From contig JAMSLZ010000020.1 in assembly GCA_026027325.1 (NCBI GenBank), positions 1 to 64,000 on the forward strand: 64,000 nucleotides of DNA, in the 5' to 3' direction. Position 1 is the stretch's first letter, and each line of letters begins with the position of its first letter. The position numbers were made by a program, and so were the translations under genes. Of the stretch, positions 1 to 23,895 are shown in pieces. The DNA is from Actinomucor elegans (lineage: Eukaryota > Mucoromycota > Mucoromycetes > Mucorales > Mucoraceae). The notes under the pieces are model-generated. The model searched no databases. It was not told the origin of the DNA and worked only from the letters and a program-made list of their open reading frames with translations.

Positions 1-32
1 TTTATATTATATCAAATTAAATAAACATCAAA

Positions 33-105
33 GCCCGGTTGCCTAATTGGATATGGCATCCGTCTTCTAAACGGAAGGTTAGGGGTTCGACCCCCTACTG
101 GGTAT
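33..105 (+). tRNA. tRNA-Arg (anticodon TCT)
   Basis: A cloverleaf can be drawn directly. Acceptor GCCCGGT pairs with ACTGGGT near the 3' end. An anticodon stem TCCGT/ACGGA closes the 7-nt loop CTTCTAA, whose central TCT reads AGA (Arg). The T arm is AGGGG, TTCGAC, CCCCT. No intron is visible. With the perfect acceptor pairing the T loop has only 6 nt. With a normal 7-nt loop the acceptor shifts by one base and acquires mismatches, so the exact ends are uncertain by 1 nt. A run of T follows within about 15 nt, as expected for a Pol III terminator. Confidence 0.87.
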
Positions 106-1779
106 CATTTTGTTTTTATTCTTTAGAGTGTATGTAGCGTTGAGACATCATTATTATGCTATAGATCAGAAGAGATAAAAGTTATGTATTACTTTTTTTT
201 TTCTTTCTAAAATCATGGCTCATAATCAAGAGCATATTATTGCAGTAGTTTGTGCTTCATTGATCGATTAATAGAGATATTAAGAGCGAAAATTACATTA
301 TAATCTTGAAAAATGTTCAGAATAAAACGTTTTGGAATGTTGAATCCACTTGGTCAGTGATGAAAGAGCTCCAAACGCGTAGTTTTGTTAGCCTTTAGGG
401 AAATGTATAATTACAGATATATAAAATTTGAAATATTTTGAAAAAGAACAGTTCTTTACAATTTACACATATTATCTTGTATGATATACCATTTTGGTTC
501 CTAGGATGGAATTTTCAACTGAAAATTGCAATCTTGAAAGTTGGTATAGCGCTACAATACACAAACGATCTCGATCATCTTGATCCAATGTTGTATTAGT
601 TAGTAATTCCTATTTAGGGTGATTTAATGCATCGATTGAAAACGACAGCTCTACACCATTCTTTCGTTGCATTTCAATGTCTATCCACATTAGTTAATTT
701 CAAAATCTCAGTAACGAAAAGTCTTTAGAACTTGTCTCTTTTAGCAAATGATAATAACATTTGACATATTATGAATGTCATCTCAACAGTTTCTCAGACT
801 TGTGTTATAGAACCTATACAAATAGATATGCATCAGTAAAGCCGATTTAATAGTAGTGTTCTTATCAGCTATATCGCATTATCAAGCTTGATAATACTGT
901 ATCACTTCCAAAACACGCAAAGTCAAGAGAAAGTAGTAATGTTTATGGGCCCTTATAATCACTTATTTTAGATTTGAAGACCCTGCTCATGCTGACAGCG
1001 TGATCAGAGCGATGAATTTGAAACTATAGCGAGATAGATGTTGTTGTTATGTTTGAATTAATAAACAAATTTTATGGTCGTTGTTATTACTAGCTTTTCA
1101 CAGCTCCTGCCTCGTTTTGCCCACCAAAAAATAAGAGTCAATAAACCACAGGTTATAGAATCTTTTTTAGACCAATATAGACTCGATTCTCTCTGTAATC
1201 AATCTATGCTTGTTGCTGTAACTTACTATTGATTTAGTTCTCGGTGAAAACAAAAATGTTTGTGTTAATGTAATCATTAAAGATGCTCGCTTTATCAAGC
1301 TATTTTAGTATAAGAATCGGCCAGTACAGTAAAAGAAGTAATTCAATATTACTGCATCTGGACCATTTCATGATAAAAAAAAACCAAAGCTCCCAGGATA
1401 ATACTAGTAATTTTATCATGAGCTATATCATGGTGATATGTTATTTCAAGACTTGTTTCAATGCGGTGGTGTTAAACATGGACCTGAAACTGTCTCAAAA
1501 GAATCAAGGGAGCAGTATATATGGTAACGTGTTTTTATGCAGGCGTGTTGTATATCAAGATAGCCATTATTGACTGCAGCATAAGGAGCTGCATGCATCT
1601 GTTGCTTCAATCTACTGCTTGTCTCGGTAAACAAAAAAAAAAAAAAAAGAAGCATGCATACATTCATGGAACATATATGTTCATAGAAGATGCAGGAGTC
1701 ACTTGGCATTAATTACATGATTATCATTAGCAGCAATTCTAGAGGTATCATCATTTATTCACATAGGTTAAGCATATGT
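106..1779. other. Stretch without a supported gene
   Basis: AT-rich DNA with only short chance reading frames. The one suggestive item is a short open segment near 970-1020 that reads FEDPAHADSVIRAM, directly after a possible splice acceptor and ending at a TAG. It resembles the C-terminal half of an RNA-recognition motif. No matching RNP1 exon was found upstream, so it is at best a fragment. Confidence 0.5.
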
Positions 1780-3862
1780 CTACTGCTCGTGTTGTTCAGT
1801 CATTCGAAGTACACTAGAGTCTGGCGCTTCCTGGTGAACTTCATCAATCGTCAAAGTATGACTAGACTTTCAATATAATATTCACTTTTCTTACTTGGCC
1901 GTCTGGCCCACCAAAAGACAATTGGAAAGCCATTGTATTCACGTTTCTCCACAGGACTCTTTCTTCTATCTGCGCTCACCATACTGCCCAGTGGCTCACG
2001 GCTGCAAGACACCAGCTGCCATCCGGCTCCCACATGATATGCGCCCACTTGTTTACCATGTCGCATTTGAAACACCTTCAAAAATCCTCGCTTGGAAGAA
2101 TACATGACCAAAACAACAGAACCTTGGGTGGTGTTGATGCATCATGCTGATACAACTCGTGTTCAAAAATCTCGACCCAACCACAGGTAGCGTCACGCAC
2201 ACCCTTCCACATACGGATCATCTCGCCTTCAACCACATCCCATAATATAACGCGACCAAGGGCATCGGCTGTCACCGCCAATGTCTGACGCTGTGCACTT
2301 GTGCTAGGCGGACAGATGGAAATTTGGTTGATCTTGCGATAAGCATCGTTGGCTGAAAGATGGCTGGAATAGGTGTAGCAGGTTCAATGTGGCTGGGCGG
2401 GCGACGCATATCAGGTACATAAGGCGTAGGTGAACTGGATCGACTTGTATTTTGACTGTTACTATTAGATCCCCACCAAGACTTTGCAAATGAGAATACG
2501 GGAGATGTAACGCGTGAAACTACGTAGCTTGCCATAGAAGCTGCAGACATGAGAGGCCGACTGGATTCGGAAGTAGCATAGTATGTAAGCATTGGATGAG
2601 AACCTACACCAATATACCGTGAAGTAGCATTTTTAGAAGGGAAGGTACTGGTACACGTCGAGATAGTCGTAGAAGGATCCATATAGGGCGTTTGATTATA
2701 TGTTGGAGAAGGTCCTATCCATGCCAATATTAATATAACTATCAAGAAAAATCATGCTTTCATCTTACCCAAACTAACGATGTCCTTGACTTGATCTTGG
2801 TGTTGAAGGTCCCATTTCTTGTATGTAAAAGCTGTATGCATACGAGAAGCATCTATGCCGCTTTCTCTTTGACCATCACACACTCTTAATACCATCCAAA
2901 GGCTTTGTCCATCAATACTAACCACTCGATTGTCATTGAACAATATAGTTATATCTTCATCCTCATTCGAAGGGTTGATTTGCGACTTTAAACACAGGTG
3001 GCGGCGTTCTGATCTTGATCGTTAAAACAGCTGTTGTTTCTAACTGCTGCTCTGTCAAAAGCACACCTGCCTAAGTAACATTATGTCAAAGTACAATCAC
3101 AAAAGCCCATTGACCTTTTACTTACGTCGAAAATACTGATCCATCCTGTATTGTATCCACACATGATATAGTTCTGTCTAAATCAAGAGATCAATTTTTT
3201 TCTTTTTTCGCTGGTGTTATATATTCTATTCAAACTTACGTTAAACGCGTCGAAGGCACAAATAACGGCAGACATAGAATGGCAGTGATCTCTTCTCTAA
3301 AATACAAAGAATTTCAGTCTAGTTTGAGATGGATATGTATTATTCAACTTACCCAGGTTGTATACAGCCTGATCCTTGACCTAATGCTGAATTCACCTTC
3401 GTTATTCAATTGAACCATGACAAACTTGGTTTTATATGCTAGTAAAAGACTACGTCCTCCGGCAGATGCAGATACCATATATCGATCATAAAACAGGCGT
3501 ATGAGGTGAAGGTGAGCGCGTAATGATATCAGCTGCTGATGGCACTGGCTCCTATCAGGTCCATTATATGAGGGGGTTTTTTTTTTCGTTCCAGTACTCC
3601 TGAGTTCCTTACCTCGTCCACTTCGTCTTTAAAAACCTTGTTCCAACCGTCTATTAGCAATATTATGAGTGAATGAAGCCTAATGGCAATAAGTACCTTC
3701 TTTTGGCGCTTTGATGATTTGTGATTCTTCTTGACTTTCATCGGTCACATCCTCATTGAACTGGAGGCTTGAGGCATGTTGCCCATGAGTATCATGAGAA
3801 CAGGCGAAGGTATTCTATAATGTGCTTCTAATATACACTTGACTTTCTTTGGACAAGACATG
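1780..3862 (-). pseudogene. Rab3GAP2-like N-terminal domain gene, frame broken
   Basis: This is a homologue of the non-catalytic subunit of the Rab3 GAP complex (RAB3GAP2 N-terminal, WD40-like domain), which with RAB3GAP1 acts on Rab GTPases in membrane traffic. Reading downstream, recognisable blocks appear in family order: GGRSLLLAYKTKFVMVQLNN (about 3480), YIMCGYNTGWISIFDV (3170), VVSIDGQSLWMVLRVC and YKKWDLQ (2752-2943), IGVGSHPMLTYYATSESSRP, EPATPIP (2370), [26 protein letters not shown] (2200), then [20 protein letters not shown] (2080). A clean intron joins SLG to GPSPTYN. The frame changes at about six places (near 2990, 2360, 2110, 1940 and 1870 among them) through one-base indels. 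No in-frame nonsense substitution is needed. The terminal TAG at 1780 follows VLRMTEQHEQ. Only the N-terminal domain is present, much shorter than animal RAB3GAP2. The start is unclear. It may be a young pseudogene, or sequence error in a functional gene. Confidence 0.75.
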
Positions 3863-3932
3863 GTTATAGTATGTACAGCTTTTTTTTTTATGAAGTAGAA
3901 AGAACAGTGCAGGTTTTATTCACTGTTCTTAA

Positions 3933-6699
3933 TTAAAAGCCAGAGGCTAGTTTCGTAAAATCATGCCTTTTATTCTTTTGTTTCTGTTTGCTATTCAACA
4001 GCAATGCTCGGAAATCATCATTGCTTTTAGGTAGGTCTTGTTCTACCTTATCTACCACTGAGTCTACAGAAGCAGCAGTGTTTGCTGCAACATCACTTCG
4101 ACTAACTGATTTGAGGTAACTTCACTGATTTACCTCGTCTAGTATTGGGTCTAACAGAACGAGGACGAGGTTTAAAGGCTGCAATGACAGGTCTTTCTTC
4201 CAAGGTATCTTCGTCCGCTTTATGTCTTTTAGATTCTTCTTGATGCAAATCCTCAGCCGAAAGCTTTTTTTACGTGCCATTGTCTCTTCTTGATCGGTAG
4301 ATTCCTCTGTTGGTTCAGTTTTTTTCTCAGTGGGTTCAGAAGCAACATGCAATGGTTCGACATCCACTTGTGGTTTCTCAATAGGTTGCTCTGGTTTCTT
4401 GAAAGTTGGTTTTTTAAACGCTTTTTCGATTGGCTTTTTGAATTCACTCTGATTTTCTTGTTTTTCTCTTTGGCTCTTTGCTTTTGTGCTATACGATGTG
4501 CACTCTTCTTTTTCTACAGACGCACAAGTCAGTTATCCAGTCAATCAATTGGTGTTTCACAAGGCACCGCAACTTACTCTATCCATTTCCTTCTTTTCCT
4601 TGGTTTGATTTCTTTTTCTTCTTCATGAACAGCATATTGCGATTGCCACTGTCTAGTCAAGATCTTTGTTTTGCGGTTTATTTTAACAAGAGCTTGCTCA
4701 TAAGACTCTAAAGTGCCAATTTCATGTTCTACAGTAGTCCAAACGTCGATCAATCTGGCAGGATTATCAATTTTTCTGAATCGCTTGTTTGAATAACGAA
4801 GCACACTTTTGATAATTGCCTTGATCGCTTTAAAATACATTAGTATACAAACAAACGTAACTGCTTTATGCTTACCGTTCAAATAGTATATATTGAATCC
4901 ATGCTTCAGTATCAATACCATGCGTATTCACTACAGATTCCCAAATTTCTCTAGCTTTATCCGAGTCACCTAATCTCTTTAATGAAATATAAGCATAGTA
5001 CTTTTCCACTCGATAATAGGGATCGCCCGATTTTGGGAATGCTATAAAAAAGTTAAATTGATGGTAATTACAGGATCAGCAAGTGTTACCTTCAGATATA
5101 TTGCAAGCACTCTTCAAATGTAACACGTAAATCCATGACTGCATCTTCGTCCACTATACAGTAGATTAGTTGCAGTAATCTACCCAAAAAGAAGGTTTCT
5201 TACCATCTTCCCAATCAACACGTCTTCTCTTATAGTCACATTTAGCCAGCAAAATAGTGACTAAATCATCCAAACTAGATAACAGAGGTTTGGATGCCAA
5301 GGCGCGATCGAATATCTATTTAAAATAATTGAATATATGACACTTTTAGCACATATTTAATTACCATCGATTTGTTCATCCGACTTGTTTCCAGATTCCA
5401 ATAACCGAGCTAAATGGCCCCATAGAGTACCAGACCAAGGGCAATTACGAATAGCTCTCAAACAGGTAGTTTCCAAAAAAGCTTGTACTCTTGCACGTTC
5501 AATCTAATCCTAAGCAAGTTAATGACCTGAGCCTACATGTGCATATAATATATTACCAAAAACAAGATGTAATCGTCCCACAATGCTGCATCTGTACAGT
5601 ATATCACGATTGCTCTTTCGTACAACGATCGAACATGATTTAATGAAAACATGTTTTTGGTGCTCTTTTCATATTCAATATATTGATAGAATGAATCGAG
5701 TGTGTAGCCTAAAGAAGCCAACTGCAATTCATAAACGTCTCTTTCTTCGGCAGCTTTTTTGGTTTTAGCATAGATCTTGTTGGCTTCTACCATATTCTTT
5801 TCATAATTGGCATTATCATAGTTGGTAACAAAGCTCGAATACGCGTCAAATGTATCTTGACAATCAATGTGAAGAACGCTCAGTCGATCCAAGTACATCT
5901 TTTTGACGCGTTCCAATTGATCTGGCTGTTTAAATCGTTCCAACAGCAAAAGTTCAAACTCTGCATAAGGTTTCCAAATCTCTTGGCTTTGTTTTACATG
6001 GGATGTGGTCGCACGCACTGCTTTCAACAAGTCTTGACGTGTCTCATCCACGAACTCTTCTACTGATTCGTCTAAGTCAATGATATCCTCGGGAAGATCC
6101 GCATTAAACTTGCTCAAAATGTAATCGATATAATCCTTCCAAATAGCAATGGCTAATACACAAAAAATGTTCAGTATATATATATATATATATTATGAAG
6201 AAGTGTTCAATGATTTGGATAGCTTACAAAGATAATCTTGCTCTGCTTGATTATAATTGCAGTAGTTTGGTTTGACCTTCCACTGTATCCGCATGTTTTT
6301 TCGCGTCCTGGATCCAATCTAGCCATAAAGCTGTACTCAACAAATAAAATGCGTAAGCATACCATCAATAAAATAACTTGTTATGAATTTACCTTCTGTC
6401 ATGGGGTAAATATCGTGCATAGTTAGCCGAGCTGTCTCGAGCTGATCGTCCAATTGAAGCTTTCTCAACAGGTCAATCAACTGAACATGCAAGTCGTATT
6501 GCGTATTATCTGTTCCAACTACATTAAAGAAATCTCAGATACATGACCACACGTTCTTGTTATCGTAGGCAAACCTTTTCCATAAGTTCAGGTAGTTTTT
6601 CGAGAGCATTCAAGGTTTCTGCGCTTCTTCTTCTTCCTTTGATACAGGCTGCTGTTCGATATTTTGAGGTGATACCTCAGTCATGTCGACTTGTTGCAT
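3933..6699 (-). pseudogene. SART3/Prp24-like HAT-repeat U6 snRNP recycling factor, frame broken, no RRM visible
   Basis: This is a homologue of SART3/Prp24, which re-anneals U4 and U6 snRNAs in the nucleus. HAT (half-a-TPR) repeats are clear across several exons: LHVQLIDLLRKLQLDDQLET, the block 5533-6117 (DLPEDIIDLDESVEEFVDET, QSQEIWKPYAEFELLLLERF, SLYERAIVIYC), then NCPWSGTLWGHLARLLE, GDPYYRVEKYYAYISLKRLG and LIDVWTTVEHEIGTLESYEQ. A basic linker follows. The C-terminus carries SNDDFRALLL, very like the conserved LSm-interaction motif of Prp24/SART3. Between the HAT block and this motif lie only about 600 bp of Lys/Glu/Pro-rich coding, and neither expected RRM is visible. The frame is broken at about five points, several at homopolymers (T7 at 4265-4271, GAA repeat near 6625, near 6265, near 4462, near 4115). 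It lies head to tail with the Rab3GAP2-like gene. Whether it is broken in vivo is uncertain. Confidence 0.75.
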
Positions 6700-13636: not shown

Positions 13637-13639
13637 ATA
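13637..13639. repeat. Left copy of putative 3-bp target-site duplication (ATA)
   Basis: ATA directly precedes the CACTA terminus and matches the ATA directly after the other end (23893-23895). A 3-bp duplication is typical of CACTA elements. With three bases chance identity is not negligible, and the right flank is an ATAATAAT run. Confidence 0.6.
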
Positions 13640-13949
13640 CACTATGGGAAAAAAAAAGTGAAATAAAGTGAATTCATGGCAAAATCAAGTGAATTTCAAG
13701 TGAATTAGTGCTTTCACCTGAATTTAAAGTGAAATAAAGTGAATTTCATGGCAACTTGGAAACCAGGTTAATGCACCTTAACTTTTATTTCCATTATTTT
13801 TCCATGAATTTCCATGTTTCCCAATTGGAGTGAATATGGAGCTAGTTCGAGTAAATTGTATGTTAAACTAAACAGTGAAGCAGAGCTCTGGTTTCAACGA
13901 ATATAAGACAGCATTGATAGTATAGAATAAATTTATATATGTACTTGGT

Positions 13950-16900
13950 TTAATAAGGTCTCCAAGCAACATATGTTTTGTCTTTATTTAATAAAGAAGG
14001 TATAAGTATAGCATATCCTATTATGTCCTTGGCTTTGATTATTTTCCATAGGAGCCTTTCTTCATAGGGTTGCGTATAATAGCAGCATGTTTGACCATCA
14101 AACACTAAAGTCGTTTGATGTTGTAATAAGGCAAGTATTTGATCTTTCCATCTAATAAACTGCTTTACTTGGCCTATATTATATTGTAAGGACATAGTAT
14201 CATCTGATATGTATGCAACTATCTTTTGGTTTTGTTTTCTTGAAGAAATATCAACGGTTTGGCCATTCCTCGTTTTACCGTAAGTATTAGAAGTAGAAAC
14301 AGAGTACTCCTCTTCTGTTGAACTGGAACCATTATGATCGGCTAGATATTGCTGGATTAGATGCTTAATATCACACGTTGGAAATAATTGGTTGATTAAG
14401 TCAGCAGAAGAAGGTTTAAATACCATATCTTCATCAACACTATGGCTTTCAATTCCAATCTGCCAGTTTTTATACGCTTTTGTGTAGTGATCCATTAGAA
14501 CAGTGACAGAGTTTTTTGAGGATTTTGTTTAGACTTGATATGTCTTTTTACATCTTGAATACTTCTTTCAAGAGTTCGGGCGCTTATCAATCTAAGTGGA
14601 CCAAGCTGAAAAATAATATAGGACAAATGTTTTAGATAATGCTGGTTAATGGTAAATGTATCTTTTCCCATCTTCTGCAGTAAGAACGCATGCCATCTTT
14701 TTACTAATCTAGAATGAAAAGACGATATAAATTATCGAAAACTTAGCATAGCTGCACGTAGTAGTCTCTCAAAAAAAAAACTTACTCATCAATCCGTAAC
14801 AGATCACTTGGATATATGTTGAATTTTTGGGTCAAAGTGCAGACCATGGATATTGATTTCAAAGCATTGCACGCATCATCAACAGCTTCCAGTACAGGAG
14901 AAGCTACCTTTCTCTTCTTTTTTCTATTTCTTTCGGTTTGGTAAATATCAGCATGTTGTTTTCGTAACGCCTCCACTACCAAAGTGGGTACTATGTACAT
15001 TAAAAAATCAATCCAGTCAACGCTACGAGATTGGCCTGATTTGGAAGAAATATCTAAGTGAAGAAAAAAGCAAGGATATTAATTCATTGGAATAATTAGC
15101 ATTAAGTTTCTTGAGTTAATCTCTAATACCTATAAATTGACCATCAATGGCTCCATTTGGAAGCATTCGTTGTATTTGAACCATTGCTCTGCCAATTTCT
15201 TCTCTATAGGCGTTCCGAAGGAACAAAGGGTTATAGTATCCGAATCTCTGAGAGTCATCCTTCATCATGGACCATATGTGCTTGGCTATATTCATTCCCC
15301 ATAAGTGCATCTCATCTAATCCAAAAAATGAACATCCATGAAAGCTTTTTAATAATGCAAATGGCAATTTCCCTTTGAGTGAAGTAGCCTAGATAGTTAA
15401 TCAAATCATACTGCATTAGACACTGATACAGTTACTATTGTTTAATTTATTAAGCTTCTTACCAAGTCACCGTTTTGATAATCCTCAGAAGTCCTTAATG
15501 GGTATTCAATGGGCTCTTGTGCTTCATTTGTTCCAGGAAAAACTATAGTCCTTTTTGATTTGGAATAAATGCCTTTGATCTTGCAAATGCGGCATCCATG
15601 GTAAGAATTATGGCCAGCATGTAAACATAGCTCTGATAGTCCAGGAATATCACCAATTATGTTTAATAAGTGGGCCTTTATACGGATGGAAGAGGTTCCT
15701 GTTTCGACAATAATGCCTTCTGTTTCCAAAACGAGAAGCTCCTGGATGGTAGGATAAAGGAAACTAAAGATATCATAGGGTTTTCTCGGACCAGGTATGA
15801 CGGCAACGATCAGTCTGTTTTCTGGATCAAATCTATAATAGAGCATTTAATTTATCCATTAAAGTTTCAGCGCCAAGTTATTTTGTTTTGTACCTTTGTT
15901 CTGGTGGTATATCATTAATAGTAAACATGATAATTGCCATACTATTATCACCTGTGTCAAAAGGATGGAATCCATCGTAATGGAACGAGAGCGAGAGGTT
16001 ATAGTCTTCTTCGGCGTCACTATTTCTACTTTTAAAAGCGAATCCATCCAATATATCTCTCTCGCAGCCATCAAGCTCATCGGTTGAACTATACACAGAG
16101 CTACGCGTAGCTTTATATTTCAACTTCTTCCTATTCTTTTCAGACAGCATAAAATAGGCCAACTGCTTACTAAGTGATAGTTGGTAATGCTTGGCTTTAG
16201 CTTCCATGATAGTTGATGTGGACGATGTCTCTTCATAACGATGTCTCTTGCAACTTAACCTAGGGCAAGCAGTTTGACTGTCACCAGGGTAATACATGTA
16301 GCACCCTTCAGGACACATGTCATATTTATCAGCTTGAAGTTGGATTATATGATTATTATTAATGCTTTCGCATTTATACGGGCTGATGAATTTTAGATGT
16401 TCTATAAAAGAAAATAAGAATAGCAGTGAGCACACTGGTAGTAGTAAAGCAGCAAGATGGAAATAATAACTATACCACTATTCATCTCAATTAAGTACTC
16501 ATTGAAGAAGTTGAATATTTTTTCGGTCGTACTTTTTGATACATTGTTTTCTTTTAAGAGATACTTCAGTTCTAGACTTTTCCTCTCTGGAGGACTTAAA
16601 ATATCCATGTACTGTTTACCATCGTCCTTGATTTTAAGCTGAATAGGATGGGTAATAGTATCTTTGAATTTGCTTAATCTAGAGTATATTTCTTCCACTG
16701 TGGTTTTTTTTATTGCGTCTTCTTCTATAGCGCCAACTGTTCGCCAACCTTCTTGTATTACCTTAGTTTTTTCTGAATTTTCTTCTTCATTCGCTATAGA
16801 GTCGCATTCATCCAAGCTGTTCATATCTACAGAGTTACTGAAATCACAGTGGCTTGTTCGTAAAATATCAGCAGGATTGTTATTTACAATATCAGTGCTT

Positions 16901-17103
16901 GATTGATGTTGCGTTTCATGGTTTAAAAGATCATCTGATACATAAGGGTTACTGGCGAAATGACCTTGCTGAGATAGTGTAAGTTTCTGCTTTACTTGAC
17001 TATATATATTGAAAGCACGTCGCATTCTGCAATTGATAATATGCCTTCTTATTTCTTTTTTAGTAAAGTACTGTTGACACACTGGGCAGTTTTCACCAGG
17101 CAT
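13950..17103 (-). pseudogene. Tnp2-type CACTA transposase, left copy, frameshifted in last exon
   Basis: Same six exons as the right copy: 16476-17103, 15894-16401, 15463-15832, 15130-15388, 14786-15053 and 13950-14708. The predicted sequence is otherwise the same. The last exon is one base short: the T6 run at 14512-14517 corresponds to A7 in the right copy. Translation therefore leaves frame about 180 codons before the normal end. If real, this copy lacks its C-terminal part. The C-terminal region lies downstream of the presumed catalytic acidic residues, so partial function cannot be excluded. A base-calling error in a homopolymer is an equally simple explanation. Confidence 0.8.
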
Positions 17104-17715
17104 TATTCTTGTTGAAATAGGCGAAAGAGTAAAATAAAGGTAAAAGCGTTGGGACTCTGCACGTATTATATGCACAGTTTTAGAGATGCGGTAAAAATTG
17201 AATAAAAAGCGAATAAATGAATTAAAACCGTTTTATGAGGTTTTATTGATCTAAAGTAAGTTTAGCTATCCTATCTAGCACGTATGTCTTGTATTTAGAT
17301 TTCAAAGAAAATAGTCTCTTGGTAACAATCAAAGGTCTTTTTAATATATGTTCACTCTGCATTAATTGTCCTTTCAGCGGTGATCCAAACTTCCCTCTTT
17401 AGATGGATGGTTAGATGAAACCCATTCCTTAATATATATATGCAGAGTGCCATATGTGCGTTTCACCACAAGAGAGATATCAATATTCGAGCAAGGTTTG
17501 TTTATTACGCATAATTACGTTACATTAGCTCTAATAGGTTCTGATTTTTTGTATATGATACCTAGCACTTCCTGGTAAGATTCTCCCGACACAGGCTATA
17601 CCTATTAAGTTAAAGCCATTTTTAACTGCAGGGCTTATGATATAAAGATGGTTCCACTACATGCATTTCTTTTGCACTCATTTCTTTCCATAAATTTTAT
17701 AAAATCATTAGAATC

Positions 17716-18389
17716 ATGCCAGCTAACAGAAGACAAATTAGACAGACCAGCCAATCCAGTCAATCCAGCAGCAGAGAAAACGACAGAGATCTTAACAGTC
17801 AAATAAATCTACCTCCACCTTGGATGGAAGATTTTAAACAAGATCTCGTAAACTATTTCGATGAAAAGCTTCAACCCTCTTTAAACATAGGAAGCTCAAA
17901 AACTATCCCAGTGCCAAAGAAGCAAAGGAGAGTAAATTCTAAAGTCTATATCCAATGCTTTTTAAAAGAACACCTAAAGGAGCCAGTGCCTAATGATGAA
18001 GATATCAGCAGCCTGATGGGAATACTTGATCAAGAAGCTTTCTCTTCAGTACTAACTTTTGCGCAGCAGAACCCAGAAGCTGCATGTAAAAGCTGGAGGC
18101 TGCTTTCTTCTCTTAATAAGCTCTCCATGATACAGTCGGCACTACAACAGTCGATAGCATCAGATGAACGGCTTGCTATCATCAACAAGTGTGTAAGATT
18201 TTGGCCTTGCGAGTTTCTTGTGCAAGAAAAATGGACTAACAGAAGCAAATATAACAGGAAGAAAGTGTAAGTGTACATTCTATAACTATTGCATATTGAA
18301 TCAAAAGGAGAGAAAAATGAACACCCATTTGTAGGCTTCAAGCGGAAGGTGCGCAGTTAAGAAATGCAAGAAATCAAGGACTGCAGTAA
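17716..18389 (+). CDS. CACTA-associated second gene, left copy (unrecognised, about 201 aa)
   Basis: Two exons, 17716-18266 and 18335-18389, joined by a consensus intron (AAAGT/GTAAGT to TTTGTAG). The start is MPANRRQIRQTSQSSQSS and the product is about 201 residues. It has a polar Ser/Gln-rich head, the segment PPPWMEDFKQDLVNYFDEKL, a basic patch (PKKQRR), then a predicted helical region ending LQAEGAQLRNARNQGLQ. I do not recognise the family. CACTA elements commonly encode a second DNA-binding protein (TNPA type) beside the transposase, and this small basic protein could play that part, but only its position suggests this. It is transcribed away from the transposase gene and toward the central repeats, in mirror image of 19141-19814. 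Confidence 0.75.
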
Positions 18390-18548
18390 TATATCAGTAA
18401 ATATAATTAGCTTAATATTATATACCCATTTTGTATCGTTTATCTTATTGAATAAAGAGTCATCATTACACATATGTTGTTTCATTATCTATACATGGTT
18501 AATACATGCAAAAAAGGTTGAAATATAAGTGGTTGAAATCATAGGAAG

Positions 18549-18822
18549 GTTAACATGCTTTTCGAGTGAATTGCAAGTGAATTGCAAGTTAACATGTTTT
18601 TCGAGTGAATTGCAAGTGAATTGCAAGTTAACATGTTTTTCGAGTGAATTGCAAGTGAATTGCAAGTTAACATGTTTTTCGAGTGAATTGCAAGTGAATT
18701 GCGAGTTAACATGTTTTTCGAGTTAATTTAAGGTGAATTTCGGGTTAACCTGATTTTCAAGTGAATTGCAGGTGAATTGCAAGTTAACTTGAATTCACTC
18801 GAAACGGCAACGATTCTCCTGC
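18549..18822 (+). repeat. 39-bp tandem array at the inner end of the left arm, running into the centre
   Basis: Units start with GTTAAC at 18549, 18588, 18627, 18666, 18705, 18744 and 18783, exactly 39 bp apart. The first four are near-identical, with core GAGTGAATTGCAAGTGAAT. The next two are diverged and the last is cut off. Units five to seven form the asymmetric centre and have no counterpart in the other arm. The AAGTGAATT motif is shared with the outer subterminal region. Confidence 0.9.
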
Positions 18823-18981
18823 AACTCGCAATTCACTTGCAATTCACTCGAAAAACATGTTAACTTGCAATTCACTTGCAATTCACTCGAAAAACATGTT
18901 AACTTGCAATTCACTTGCAATTCACTCGAAAAACATGTTAACTTGCAATTCACTTGCAATTCACTCGAAAAGCATGTTAAC
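18823..18981 (-). repeat. 39-bp tandem array at the inner end of the right arm
   Basis: Four units in reverse orientation, matching the first four of the left arm. The array is truncated where it meets the centre. Confidence 0.88.
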
Positions 18982-19140
18982 CTTCCTATGATTTCAACCA
19001 CTTATATTTCAACCTTTTTTGCATGTATTAACCATGTATAGATAATGAAACAACATATGTGTAATGATGACTCTTTATTCAATAAGATAAACGATACAAA
19101 ATGGGTATATAATATTAAGCTAATTATATTTACTGATATA

Positions 19141-19814
19141 TTACTGCAGTCCTTGATTTCTTGCATTTCTTAACTGCGCACCTTCCGCTTGAAGCCTACA
19201 AATGGGTGTTCATTTTTCTCTCCTTTTGATTCAATATGCAATAGTTATAGAATGTACACTTACACTTTCTTCCTGTTATATTTGCTTCTGTTAGTCCATT
19301 TTTCTTGCACAAGAAACTCGCAAGGCCAAAATCTTACACACTTGTTGATGATAGCAAGCCGTTCATCTGATGCTATCGACTGTTGTAGTGCCGACTGTAT
19401 CATGGAGAGCTTATTAAGAGAAGAAAGCAGCCTCCAGCTTTTACATGCAGCTTCTGGGTTCTGCTGCGCAAAAGTTAGTACTGAAGAGAAAGCTTCTTGA
19501 TCAAGTATTCCCATCAGGCTGCTGATATCTTCATCATTAGGCACTGGCTCCTTTAGGTGTTCTTTTAAAAAGCATTGGATATAGACTTTAGAATTTACTC
19601 TCCTTTGCTTCTTTGGCACTGGGATAGTTTTTGAGCTTCCTATGTTTAAAGAGGGTTGAAGCTTTTCATCGAAATAGTTTACGAGATCTTGTTTAAAATC
19701 TTCCATCCAAGGTGGAGGTAGATTTATTTGACTGTTAAGATCTCTGTCGTTTTCTCTGCTGCTGGATTGACTGGATTGGCTGGTCTGTCTAATTTGTCTT
19801 CTGTTAGCTGGCAT
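19141..19814 (-). CDS. CACTA-associated second gene, right copy (unrecognised, about 201 aa)
   Basis: Exons 19264-19814 and 19141-19195, with the same predicted protein as 17716-18389. The start is at 19814, fixed by mirror position and by the upstream T-rich leader. There is no recognised domain. It converges on the left copy across the 39-bp arrays. Readthrough from either copy would give RNA able to fold back on itself. Confidence 0.75.
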
Positions 19815-20427
19815 GATTCTAATGATTTTATAAAATTTATGGAAAGAAATGAGTGCAAAAGAAATGCATGTAGTGGAACCATCTTTATATCATAAGCCCT
19901 GCAGTTAAAAATGGCTTTAACTTAATAGGTATAGCCTGTGTCGGGAGAATCTTACCAGGAAGTGCTAGGTATCATATACAAAAAATCAGAACCTATTAGA
20001 GCTAATGTAACGTAATTATGCGTAATAAACAAACCTTGCTCGAATATTGATATCTCTCTTGTGGTGAAACGCACATATGGCACTCTGCATATATATATTA
20101 AGGAATGGGTTTCATCTAACCATCCATCTAAAGAGGGAAGTTTGGATCACCGCTGAAAGGACAATTAATGCAGAGTGAACATATATTAAAAAAGACCTTT
20201 GATTGTTACCAAGAGACTATTTTCTTTGAAATCTAAATACAAGACATACGTGCTAGATAGGATAGCTAAACTTACTTTAGATCAATAAAACCTCATAAAA
20301 CGGTTTTAATTCATTTATTCGCTTTTTATTCAATTTTTACCGCATCTCTAAAACTGTGCATATAATACGTGCAGAGTCCCAACGCTTTTACCTTTATTTT
20401 ACTCTTTCGCCTATTTCAACAAGAATA

Positions 20428-23400
20428 ATGCCTGGTGAAAACTGCCCAGTGTGTCAACAGTACTTTACTAAAAAAGAAATAAGAAGGCATATTATCAATT
20501 GCAGAATGCGACGTGCTTTCAATATATATAGTCAAGTAAAGCAGAAACTTACACTATCTCAGCAAGGTCATTTCGCCAGTAACCCTTATGTATCAGATGA
20601 TCTTTTAAACCATGAAACGCAACATCAATCAAGCACTGATATTGTAAATAACAATCCTGCTGATATTTTACGAACAAGCCACTGTGATTTCAGTAACTCT
20701 GTAGATATGAACAGCTTGGATGAATGCGACTCTATAGCGAATGAAGAAGAAAATTCAGAAAAAACTAAGGTAATACAAGAAGGTTGGCGAACAGTTGGCG
20801 CTATAGAAGAAGACGCAATAAAAAAAACCACAGTGGAAGAAATATACTCTAGATTAAGCAAATTCAAAGATACTATTACCCATCCTATTCAGCTTAAAAT
20901 CAAGGACGATGGTAAACAGTACATGGATATTTTAAGTCCTCCAGAGAGGAAAAGTCTAGAACTGAAGTATCTCTTAAAAGAAAACAATGTATCAAAAAGT
21001 ACGACCGAAAAAATATTCAACTTCTTCAATGAGTACTTAATTGAGATGAATAGTGGTATAGTTATTATTTCCATCTTGCTGCTTTACTACTACCAGTGTG
21101 CTCACTGCTATTCTTATTTTCTTTTATAGAACATCTAAAATTCATCAGCCCGTATAAATGCGAAAGCATTAATAATAATCATATAATCCAACTTCAAGCT
21201 GATAAATATGACATGTGTCCTGAAGGGTGCTACATGTATTACCCTGGTGACAGTCAAACTGCTTGCCCTAGGTTAAGTTGCAAGAGACATCGTTATGAAG
21301 AGACATCGTCCACATCAACTATCATGGAAGCTAAAGCCAAGCATTACCAACTATCACTTAGTAAGCAGTTGGCCTATTTTATGCTGTCTGAAAAGAATAG
21401 GAAGAAGTTGAAATATAAAGCTACGCGTAGCTCTGTGTATAGTTCAACCGATGAGCTTGATGGCTGCGAGAGAGATATATTGGATGGATTCGCTTTTAAA
21501 AGTAGAAATAGTGACGCCGAAGAAGACTATAACCTCTCGCTCTCGTTCCATTACGATGGATTCCATCCTTTTGACACAGGTGATAATAGTATGGCAATTA
21601 TCATGTTTACTATTAATGATATACCACCAGAACAAAGGTACAAAACAAAATAACTTGGCGCTGAAACTTTAATGGATAAATTAAATGCTCTATTATAGAT
21701 TTGATCCAGAAAACAGACTGATCGTTGCCGTCATACCTGGTCCGAGAAAACCCTATGATATCTTTAGTTTCCTTTATCCTACCATCCAGGAGCTTCTCGT
21801 TTTGGAAACAGAAGGCATTATTGTCGAAACAGGAACCTCTTCCATCCGTATAAAGGCCCACTTATTAAACATAATTGGTGATATTCCTGGACTATCAGAG
21901 CTATGTTTACATGCTGGCCATAATTCTTACCATGGATGCCGCATTTGCAAGATCAAAGGCATTTATTCCAAATCAAAAAGGACTATAGTTTTTCCTGGAA
22001 CAAATGAAGCACAAGAGCCCATTGAATACCCATTAAGGACTTCTGAGGATTATCAAAACGGTGACTTGGTAAGAAGCTTAATAAATTAAACAATAGTAAC
22101 TGTATCAGTGTCTAATGCAGTATGATTTGATTAACTATCTAGGCTACTTCACTCAAAGGGAAATTGCCATTTGCATTATTAAAAAGCTTTCATGGATGTT
22201 CATTTTTTGGATTAGATGAGATGCACTTATGGGGAATGAATATAGCCAAGCACATATGGTCCATGATGAAGGATGACTCTCAGAGATTCGGATACTATAA
22301 CCCTTTGTTCCTTCGGAACGCCTATAGAGAAGAAATTGGCAGAGCAATGGTTCAAATACAACGAATGCTTCCAAATGGAGCCATTGATGGTCAATTTATA
22401 GGTATTAGAGATTAACTCAAGAAACTTAATGCTAATTATTCCAATGAATTAATATCCTTGCTTTTTTCTTCACTTAGATATTTCTTCCAAATCAGGCCAA
22501 TCTCGTAGCGTTGACTGGATTGATTTTTTAATGTACATAGTACCCACTTTGGTAGTGGAGGCGTTACGAAAACAACATGCTGATATTTACCAAACCGAAA
22601 GAAATAGAAAAAAGAAGAGAAAGGTAGCTTCTCCTGTACTGGAAGCTGTTGATGATGCGTGCAATGCTTTGAAATCAATATCCATGGTCTGCACTTTGAC
22701 CCAAAAATTCAACATATATCCAAGTGATCTGTTACGGATTGATGAGTAAGTTTTTTTTTTGAGAGACTACTACGTGCAGCTATGCTAAGTTTTCGATAAT
22801 TTATATCGTCTTTTCATTCTAGATTAGTAAAAAGATGGCATGCGTTCTTACTGCAGAAGATGGGAAAAGATACATTTACCATTAACCAGCATTATCTAAA
22901 ACATTTGTCCTATATTATTTTTCAGCTTGGTCCACTTAGATTGATAAGCGCCCGAACTCTTGAAAGAAGTATTCAAGATGTAAAAAGACATATCAAGTCT
23001 AAACAAAATCCTCAAAAAAACTCTGTCACTGTTCTAATGGATCACTACACAAAAGCGTATAAAAACTGGCAGATTGGAATTGAAAGCCATAGTGTTGATG
23101 AAGATATGGTATTTAAACCTTCTTCTGCTGACTTAATCAACCAATTATTTCCAACGTGTGATATTAAGCATCTAATCCAGCAATATCTAGCCGATCATAA
23201 TGGTTCCAGTTCAACAGAAGAGGAGTACTCTGTTTCTACTTCTAATACTTACGGTAAAACGAGGAATGGCCAAACCGTTGATATTTCTTCAAGAAAACAA
23301 AACCAAAAGATAGTTGCATACATATCAGATGATACTATGTCCTTACAATATAATATAGGCCAAGTAAAGCAGTTTATTAGATGGAAAGATCAAATACTTG

Positions 23401-23582
23401 CCTTATTACAACATCAAACGACTTTAGTGTTTGATGGTCAAACATGCTGCTATTATACGCAACCCTATGAAGAAAGGCTCCTATGGAAAATAATCAAAGC
23501 CAAGGACATAATAGGATATGCTATACTTATACCTTCTTTATTAAATAAAGACAAAACATATGTTGCTTGGAGACCTTATTAA
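20428..23582 (+). CDS. Tnp2-type CACTA transposase, right copy, intact (930 aa)
   Basis: Six exons: 20428-21055, 21130-21637, 21699-22068, 22143-22401, 22478-22745 and 22823-23582, totalling 2793 nt. The N-terminus has a C2HC-type zinc-binding pattern (CPVCQQYF then H-x4-C in IRRHIINCR). A Cys cluster follows (MCPEGC ... ACPRLSCKRHR). The Tnp2 core runs YDGFHPFDTGDNSM (first acidic residue), VAVIPGPRKPYDIFSFLYP, AHLLNIIGDIPGLSELC (second), HGCRICKIKG, and LDEMHLWGMNIAKHIW, equivalent to the D-x-M-H segment of Tnp2. Its role is excision and insertion of the element, acting on the CACTA ends. The start MPGENCPVCQ was preferred to an in-frame ATG 24 codons upstream because it sits directly before the zinc-binding motif. 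The length is plausible for a fungal Tnp2 protein. The C-terminal part (NQHYLKHLSY, GPLRLISARTLERSI) is also seen in Mucoromycota transposase-domain proteins. Confidence 0.88.
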
Positions 23583-23892
23583 ACCAAGTACATATATAAA
23601 TTTATTCTATACTATCAATGCTGTCTTATATTCGTTGAAACCAGAGCTCTGCTTCACTGTTTAGTTTAACATACAATTTACTCGAACTAGCTCCATATTC
23701 ACTCCAATTGGGAAACATGGAAATTCATGGAAAAATAATGGAAATAAAAGTTAAGGTGCATTAACCTGGTTTCCAAGTTGCCATGAAATTCACTTTATTT
23801 CACTTTAAATTCAGGTGAAAGCACTAATTCACTTGAAATTCACTTGATTTTGCCATGAATTCACTTTATTTCACTTTTTTTTTCCCATAGTG

Positions 23893-23895
23893 ATA
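23893..23895. repeat. Right copy of putative 3-bp target-site duplication (ATA)
   Basis: ATA directly after the TAGTG end of the element, matching 13637-13639. Confidence 0.6.

Follow-up and report, generated by a model that had tools for sequence, protein, structure and literature searches.

A CACTA transposon copy rearranged into a tail-to-tail inverted dimer with two left ends in Actinomucor elegans

Transposons of the CACTA superfamily are defined by CACTA termini, 3-bp target duplications, subterminal direct and inverted repeats, and by the transposase and second protein that they encode (PMC8978399). In maize, Mu killer derives from MuDR and is described as an inverted duplication of the transposase gene together with a transposon end, for which a hairpin RNA has been proposed (PMC3440606). 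The maize Ac/Ds system includes a structure named double Ds, which is given as absent from the B73 genome (PMC3260210), and very long terminal inverted repeats are described for Foldback-like elements and Galileo (PMC4168063). In yeast, inverted products form at inverted repeats (PMC6103520; PMC10766183), and the summary of the second of these studies favours replication error over breaks. A literature search limited to the terms used and to titles and abstract openings gave no palindromic CACTA dimer among the matches listed.

Here we analyzed a stretch of 64,000 bp from Actinomucor elegans (hereafter the window), which lies on contig C13 of the assembly, and we found that positions 13640-23892 are a rearranged tail-to-tail dimer of a 5,239-bp CACTA (tnp2) monomer. 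A preliminary description of the locus had reported CACTA termini at these coordinates, flanking ATA, mirrored arms and an asymmetric centre of 115 bp, and all of these are present in the sequence. The region is an inverted repeat between the termini CACTATGGG and CCCATAGTG with ATA beside each. Comparison with the monomers shows that its left part (13640-18824, forward strand) corresponds to monomer bases 1-5187 and begins with the left terminus CACTATGGG, and that its right part (18823-23892, reverse strand) is the reverse complement of bases 5070-1 and ends in a second left terminus, the two parts sharing a 2-bp overlap (AA) at the junction (18823-18824). The mirrored arms (13640-18707 and 18823-23892) represent 5,070 bp of the monomer and differ from each other by two 1-bp gaps only, both in T runs, at 14511 and 17337 (a third gap, placed where the slices used for this comparison stop, is an effect of the slice lengths). 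Chance cannot account for an inverted match this long. Between the arms lies the unmirrored centre of 115 bp (18708-18822; monomer bases 5071-5185, or 117 bp counting the overlap), surrounded by the subterminal repeats of the monomer right end, in units of about 39 bp, and their mirror copy (18549-18981). The last 52 bp of the monomer (bases 5188-5239), which contain the right terminus, are missing, and the right-end pattern had no match within 13640-23892. Consequently, instead of one left and one right end, both outer ends of the dimer are left ends. The palindrome initially described is therefore real, but the unit of this family is a monomer with differing left and right ends, of which the palindrome is a rearranged dimer.

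To describe the monomer family we used searches of the whole genome (36.5 Mb in 27 contigs). With the first 2 kb of the element as query, at least 41 matches were obtained (40 of the 96 candidates were scored), and rounded identity was 100% in 40 of the 41, both palindrome arms among them. Searching for the end patterns led to the identification of 59 left ends (at most 3 mismatches) and 57 right ends (at most 2 mismatches). In 54 cases a left and a right end lie about 5.2 kb from each other, and one further pair is separated by 28 kb. Four left ends remained unpaired, namely three of the palindrome (two on C13 and one on C23) and C10:61298; the fourth palindrome left end, on C23, was missed by the pattern in a stretch that is rich in indels. 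The unpaired right ends were C6:67508 and C12:1668494, the latter belonging to a copy (L033) that aligned along the whole monomer with many gaps. We fetched and read 18 of the 54 end-paired copies (L011-L028). Sixteen are 5,238-5,239 bp long, and the remaining two, L022 and L024 (5,198 and 5,200 bp), have a shorter right subterminal array. When L011 itself is counted, 16 of the 18 depart from L011 by two substitutions at most, or by a substitution plus a gap. All 18 start with CACTATGGG and end with CCCATAGTG, with CACTA inverted at both termini, these patterns being themselves the means by which the monomer ends were located. In every one the left end is like that of the palindrome and the right end is different, the two termini being identical over their first 14 bases. 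The right end carries subterminal direct and inverted repeats and folds strongly as single-stranded DNA (z -7.1; none of 100 shuffles was as good). The monomer family is thus an ordinary CACTA family, and the assignment to CACTA made previously is borne out by the termini of the monomers, their 3-bp duplications and a Transposase_21 match. The near-identical copies suggest recent activity in this genome. The similarity of the two arms had been taken as a sign of recent formation or ongoing homogenization; this does not hold, because ordinary copies are equally alike and arm identity is therefore uninformative. Among the 18 monomers base 2717 is variable, being G in L011, L018 and L019, and both palindrome arms have A at this position.

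Other members and relatives of the family were also seen. The pair of ends 28 kb apart (left end C26:15379, right end C26:43554) belongs to a family monomer flanked by TAC on both sides and swollen to 28 kb (C26:15354-43602; L031, L032, L034 and L035). In the portion read, which comprised all but the middle (C26:25901-33299), it contains several repeats of 0.36-0.41 kb and ORFs that by eye resemble reverse transcriptase and integrase. We rejected the possibility of a giant cargo-carrying CACTA element, since in the stretches read colinear segments of a single monomer alternate with other sequence, which we take as nested insertions. A related element at C7:29914-30454 is 79% identical to the query over bases 15-501 and begins 21 bp from the left end of a monomer, head to head with it.

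The junction pattern (at most 2 mismatches in the genome search) was found only on C13 and on the part of C23 that overlaps it. The overlap consists of the final 24.7 kb of C23 (C23:3018326-3043051) and of C13:1-24691, which differ by 4 mismatches and 201 gap bases, so that positions 1-24691 of the window are present twice in the assembly, and the two contigs look like an end-to-end overlap of one chromosome region. We accordingly rejected the C23 copy as a second palindrome locus. The search for further palindromic copies, which had been proposed as a check, thus returned one locus only. C13 opens with a tRNA-Arg gene (anticodon TCT) at positions 33-104 of the window. In the first 8 kb of the overlap 105 of 111 gap bases are missing from C13, and beyond 16 kb C23 lacks 73 of 79. 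The quality of each contig thus falls toward its own end, as might result from low read depth there. The junction and both flanks are present in both versions, with 781 bp of right flank in C23. Given their opposite error gradients, these are two partly separate consensus sequences with the same dimer, which argues against an assembly artefact. The two gaps between the C13 arms are not among the differences in C23; the arms may consequently be identical, and the frameshift that the gap at 14511 causes in the left arm may be a consensus error.

The right arm carries an open transposase gene of six exons (20428-23582, forward strand) encoding 930 aa, with a match to the Pfam profile Transposase_21 (tnp2) of 43.3 bits (cutoff 28.6). 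Its exon chain was picked by eye using GT-AG signals. The 18 monomers read all encode the identical 930-aa protein, in which putative residues of the DDD/E catalytic triad were picked by eye. The left-arm copy (13950-17103, reverse strand) is shifted in frame by the 1-bp gap at 14511 in C13 and not in C23. The two transposase genes reported at first are therefore a genuine doubling of the gene, with the left copy interrupted in one of the two versions. A protein search with the whole transposase gave 4,988 candidates, none of which was scored, perhaps due to exon-sized ORFs in the database, and the ORF of the last exon had 2 relatives, both named just 'hypothetical protein'. The second gene, a 184-aa ORF (17716-18270, forward strand), points toward the centre and has a mirror copy (19260-19814, reverse strand), so that the two copies face each other across the 115-bp loop. 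It had no Pfam match at E 0.1, and its protein search gave three relatives, again all just 'hypothetical protein'. An AATAAA at 18451, ahead of the centre, may stop transcripts short of it.

Judged from the sequence and from the monomer flanks, the dimer lies between target-site duplications of ATA, at 13637-13639 on the left and at 23893-23895 on the right, the latter where an (ATA)n run begins. Matching flanks of 3 bp were seen in 15 of the 18 monomers and of 4 bp in 2, and there was none in L022; of two further copies, the nested one on C26 has TAC/TAC and L033 has no match. The flank rule is therefore not absolute, as L022 and L033 have no matching 3- or 4-bp flanks. The chance of a 3-bp flank match is about 0.02, and the frequency of ATA, with which the left flank ends, is about 0.03. 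Rejoining the flanks gives an empty site made up of a 14-bp AAT run, with period 3. Period-3 runs of at least 7, 10 and 12 bp were found at 8, 5 and 3 of 20 sites (the 18 monomers, the palindrome and the C26 copy, leaving out L033) compared with 4.1%, 0.4% and 0.27% of random window positions, in a test made after the pattern was noticed and with this window alone as background. Trinucleotide repeats are thus over-represented among the insertion sites of the family relative to random window positions. A disrupted host gene was considered and rejected, since the longest stop-to-stop frame across the rejoined site is 34 codons, and the insertion looks intergenic. We also looked for a single-arm or empty version of the locus through its flanks. 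In a search that passed over simple repeats and very frequent words, the 1.5 kb on either side had matches nowhere but on C13 and in the C23 overlap, and no such version was found.

We propose that a CACTA element truncated at its right end was joined tail to tail and then inserted as a dimer by means of its two left ends, an account to which we give a probability of roughly 0.55. The hairpin-prone right end would have been lost, and what was left would have been joined to its mirror image, through synthesis after its own right end had folded back or through end joining of two copies at a microhomology. With a left end on either side, the resulting inverted dimer would then have been inserted by the transposase of the family into an AAT repeat, with duplication of ATA. 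The strong single-strand folding of the right end makes fold-back or inverted-repeat annealing plausible, and routes of this sort are described from yeast (PMC6103520; PMC10766183). The breakpoints at monomer bases 5187 and 5070 leave a 2-bp overlap, which argues weakly for fold-back pairing and fits end joining equally well; by inspection, about 9 bp that are missing here would have remained if the longer imperfect repeats had annealed. The route of joining and the insertion after dimer formation are what we infer, and so is the mobility of the dimer, since a single dimer locus was found. The preliminary description had read the matching ATA flanks as a sign that the dimer moved or inserted as one unit; a single insertion is indeed favoured given the chance match of about 0.02, although the right flank is itself an ATA run, and conversion in place is compatible with the same flanks.

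Such a conversion ranks next and is, in our opinion, rather unlikely. An ordinary monomer would have inserted here between ATA and ATA, and its right end, lost to a break, would have been replaced by a copy of a left arm, rejoining the flank through the 14 bases that the left and right termini share. The flank duplication would survive these events, and many near-identical copies could serve as donors, but the process requires a template switch to the opposite orientation together with an exact 14-bp return, and the copies read included no intermediate. We regard as improbable a history in which two monomers inserted tail to tail near each other and a deletion then took both right ends and the intervening DNA, joining the remainder at the 2-bp overlap. 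The junction does resemble ordinary end joining, and closely spaced copies exist, as illustrated by two C12 copies about 9.4 kb apart, albeit head to head. In this case, however, the ATA flanks would match by chance only (about 2%), and they would not be expected to rejoin as one AAT run. Least probable of all is an assembly artefact, in which two monomers were misjoined via repeats or a chimeric read was included. The locus does lie in the overlap of two contig ends where the consensus is of low quality, and the C13 and C23 versions may share reads. Against this, two consensus versions with different errors have the same junction and flanks, the ATA flanks match, each flank matched only this locus, and by inspection the junction does not coincide with the longest overlap between the repeats, as one would expect of a misjoin. 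We regard the dimer as one aberrant copy whose structure is well supported at the level of the assembly.

If the dimer inserted as a unit, as in the account we prefer, it amounts to a natural experiment on what is required of the ends in a superfamily where these differ, and a left end alone would be enough for pairing, cleavage and insertion. It also shows a possible one-step route from short terminal repeats to a foldback-like transposon, and structures of this kind may be an origin of hairpin loci that silence a transposon family. The facing copies of the second gene could further make the dimer a source of hairpin RNA that acts, like Mu killer, on the young family from which it derives; that it both transposed as a unit and has such a role seems doubtful to us.

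In comparison with CACTA (En/Spm) elements as they are generally characterized, the palindrome shares the termini, the 3-bp duplications, the subterminal repeats, and a transposase accompanied by a second protein of unknown function, but it has two left ends and no right end, and both genes are mirror-doubled. In its sequence geometry the dimer resembles Mu killer as summarized above, since a transposase gene and one end of the transposon are duplicated in inverted orientation; Mu killer, however, is a partial duplication from another superfamily that silences its family, whereas here nearly the whole element is mirrored. A double Ds consists of one Ds within another in inverted orientation. 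It resembles the dimer in that two copies of one element are combined in rearranged form, but nothing is nested in the palindrome. The very long terminal inverted repeats reported for Foldback-like elements and Galileo are likewise found in the dimer, yet in those elements they are a property of the family, whereas here they belong to one aberrant copy, with the junction at one locus and 54 left-right pairs about 5.2 kb apart, in a family whose terminal repeats are short. Finally, the inverted products described in yeast are chromosomal events, whereas the limits of the dimer coincide exactly with transposon ends.
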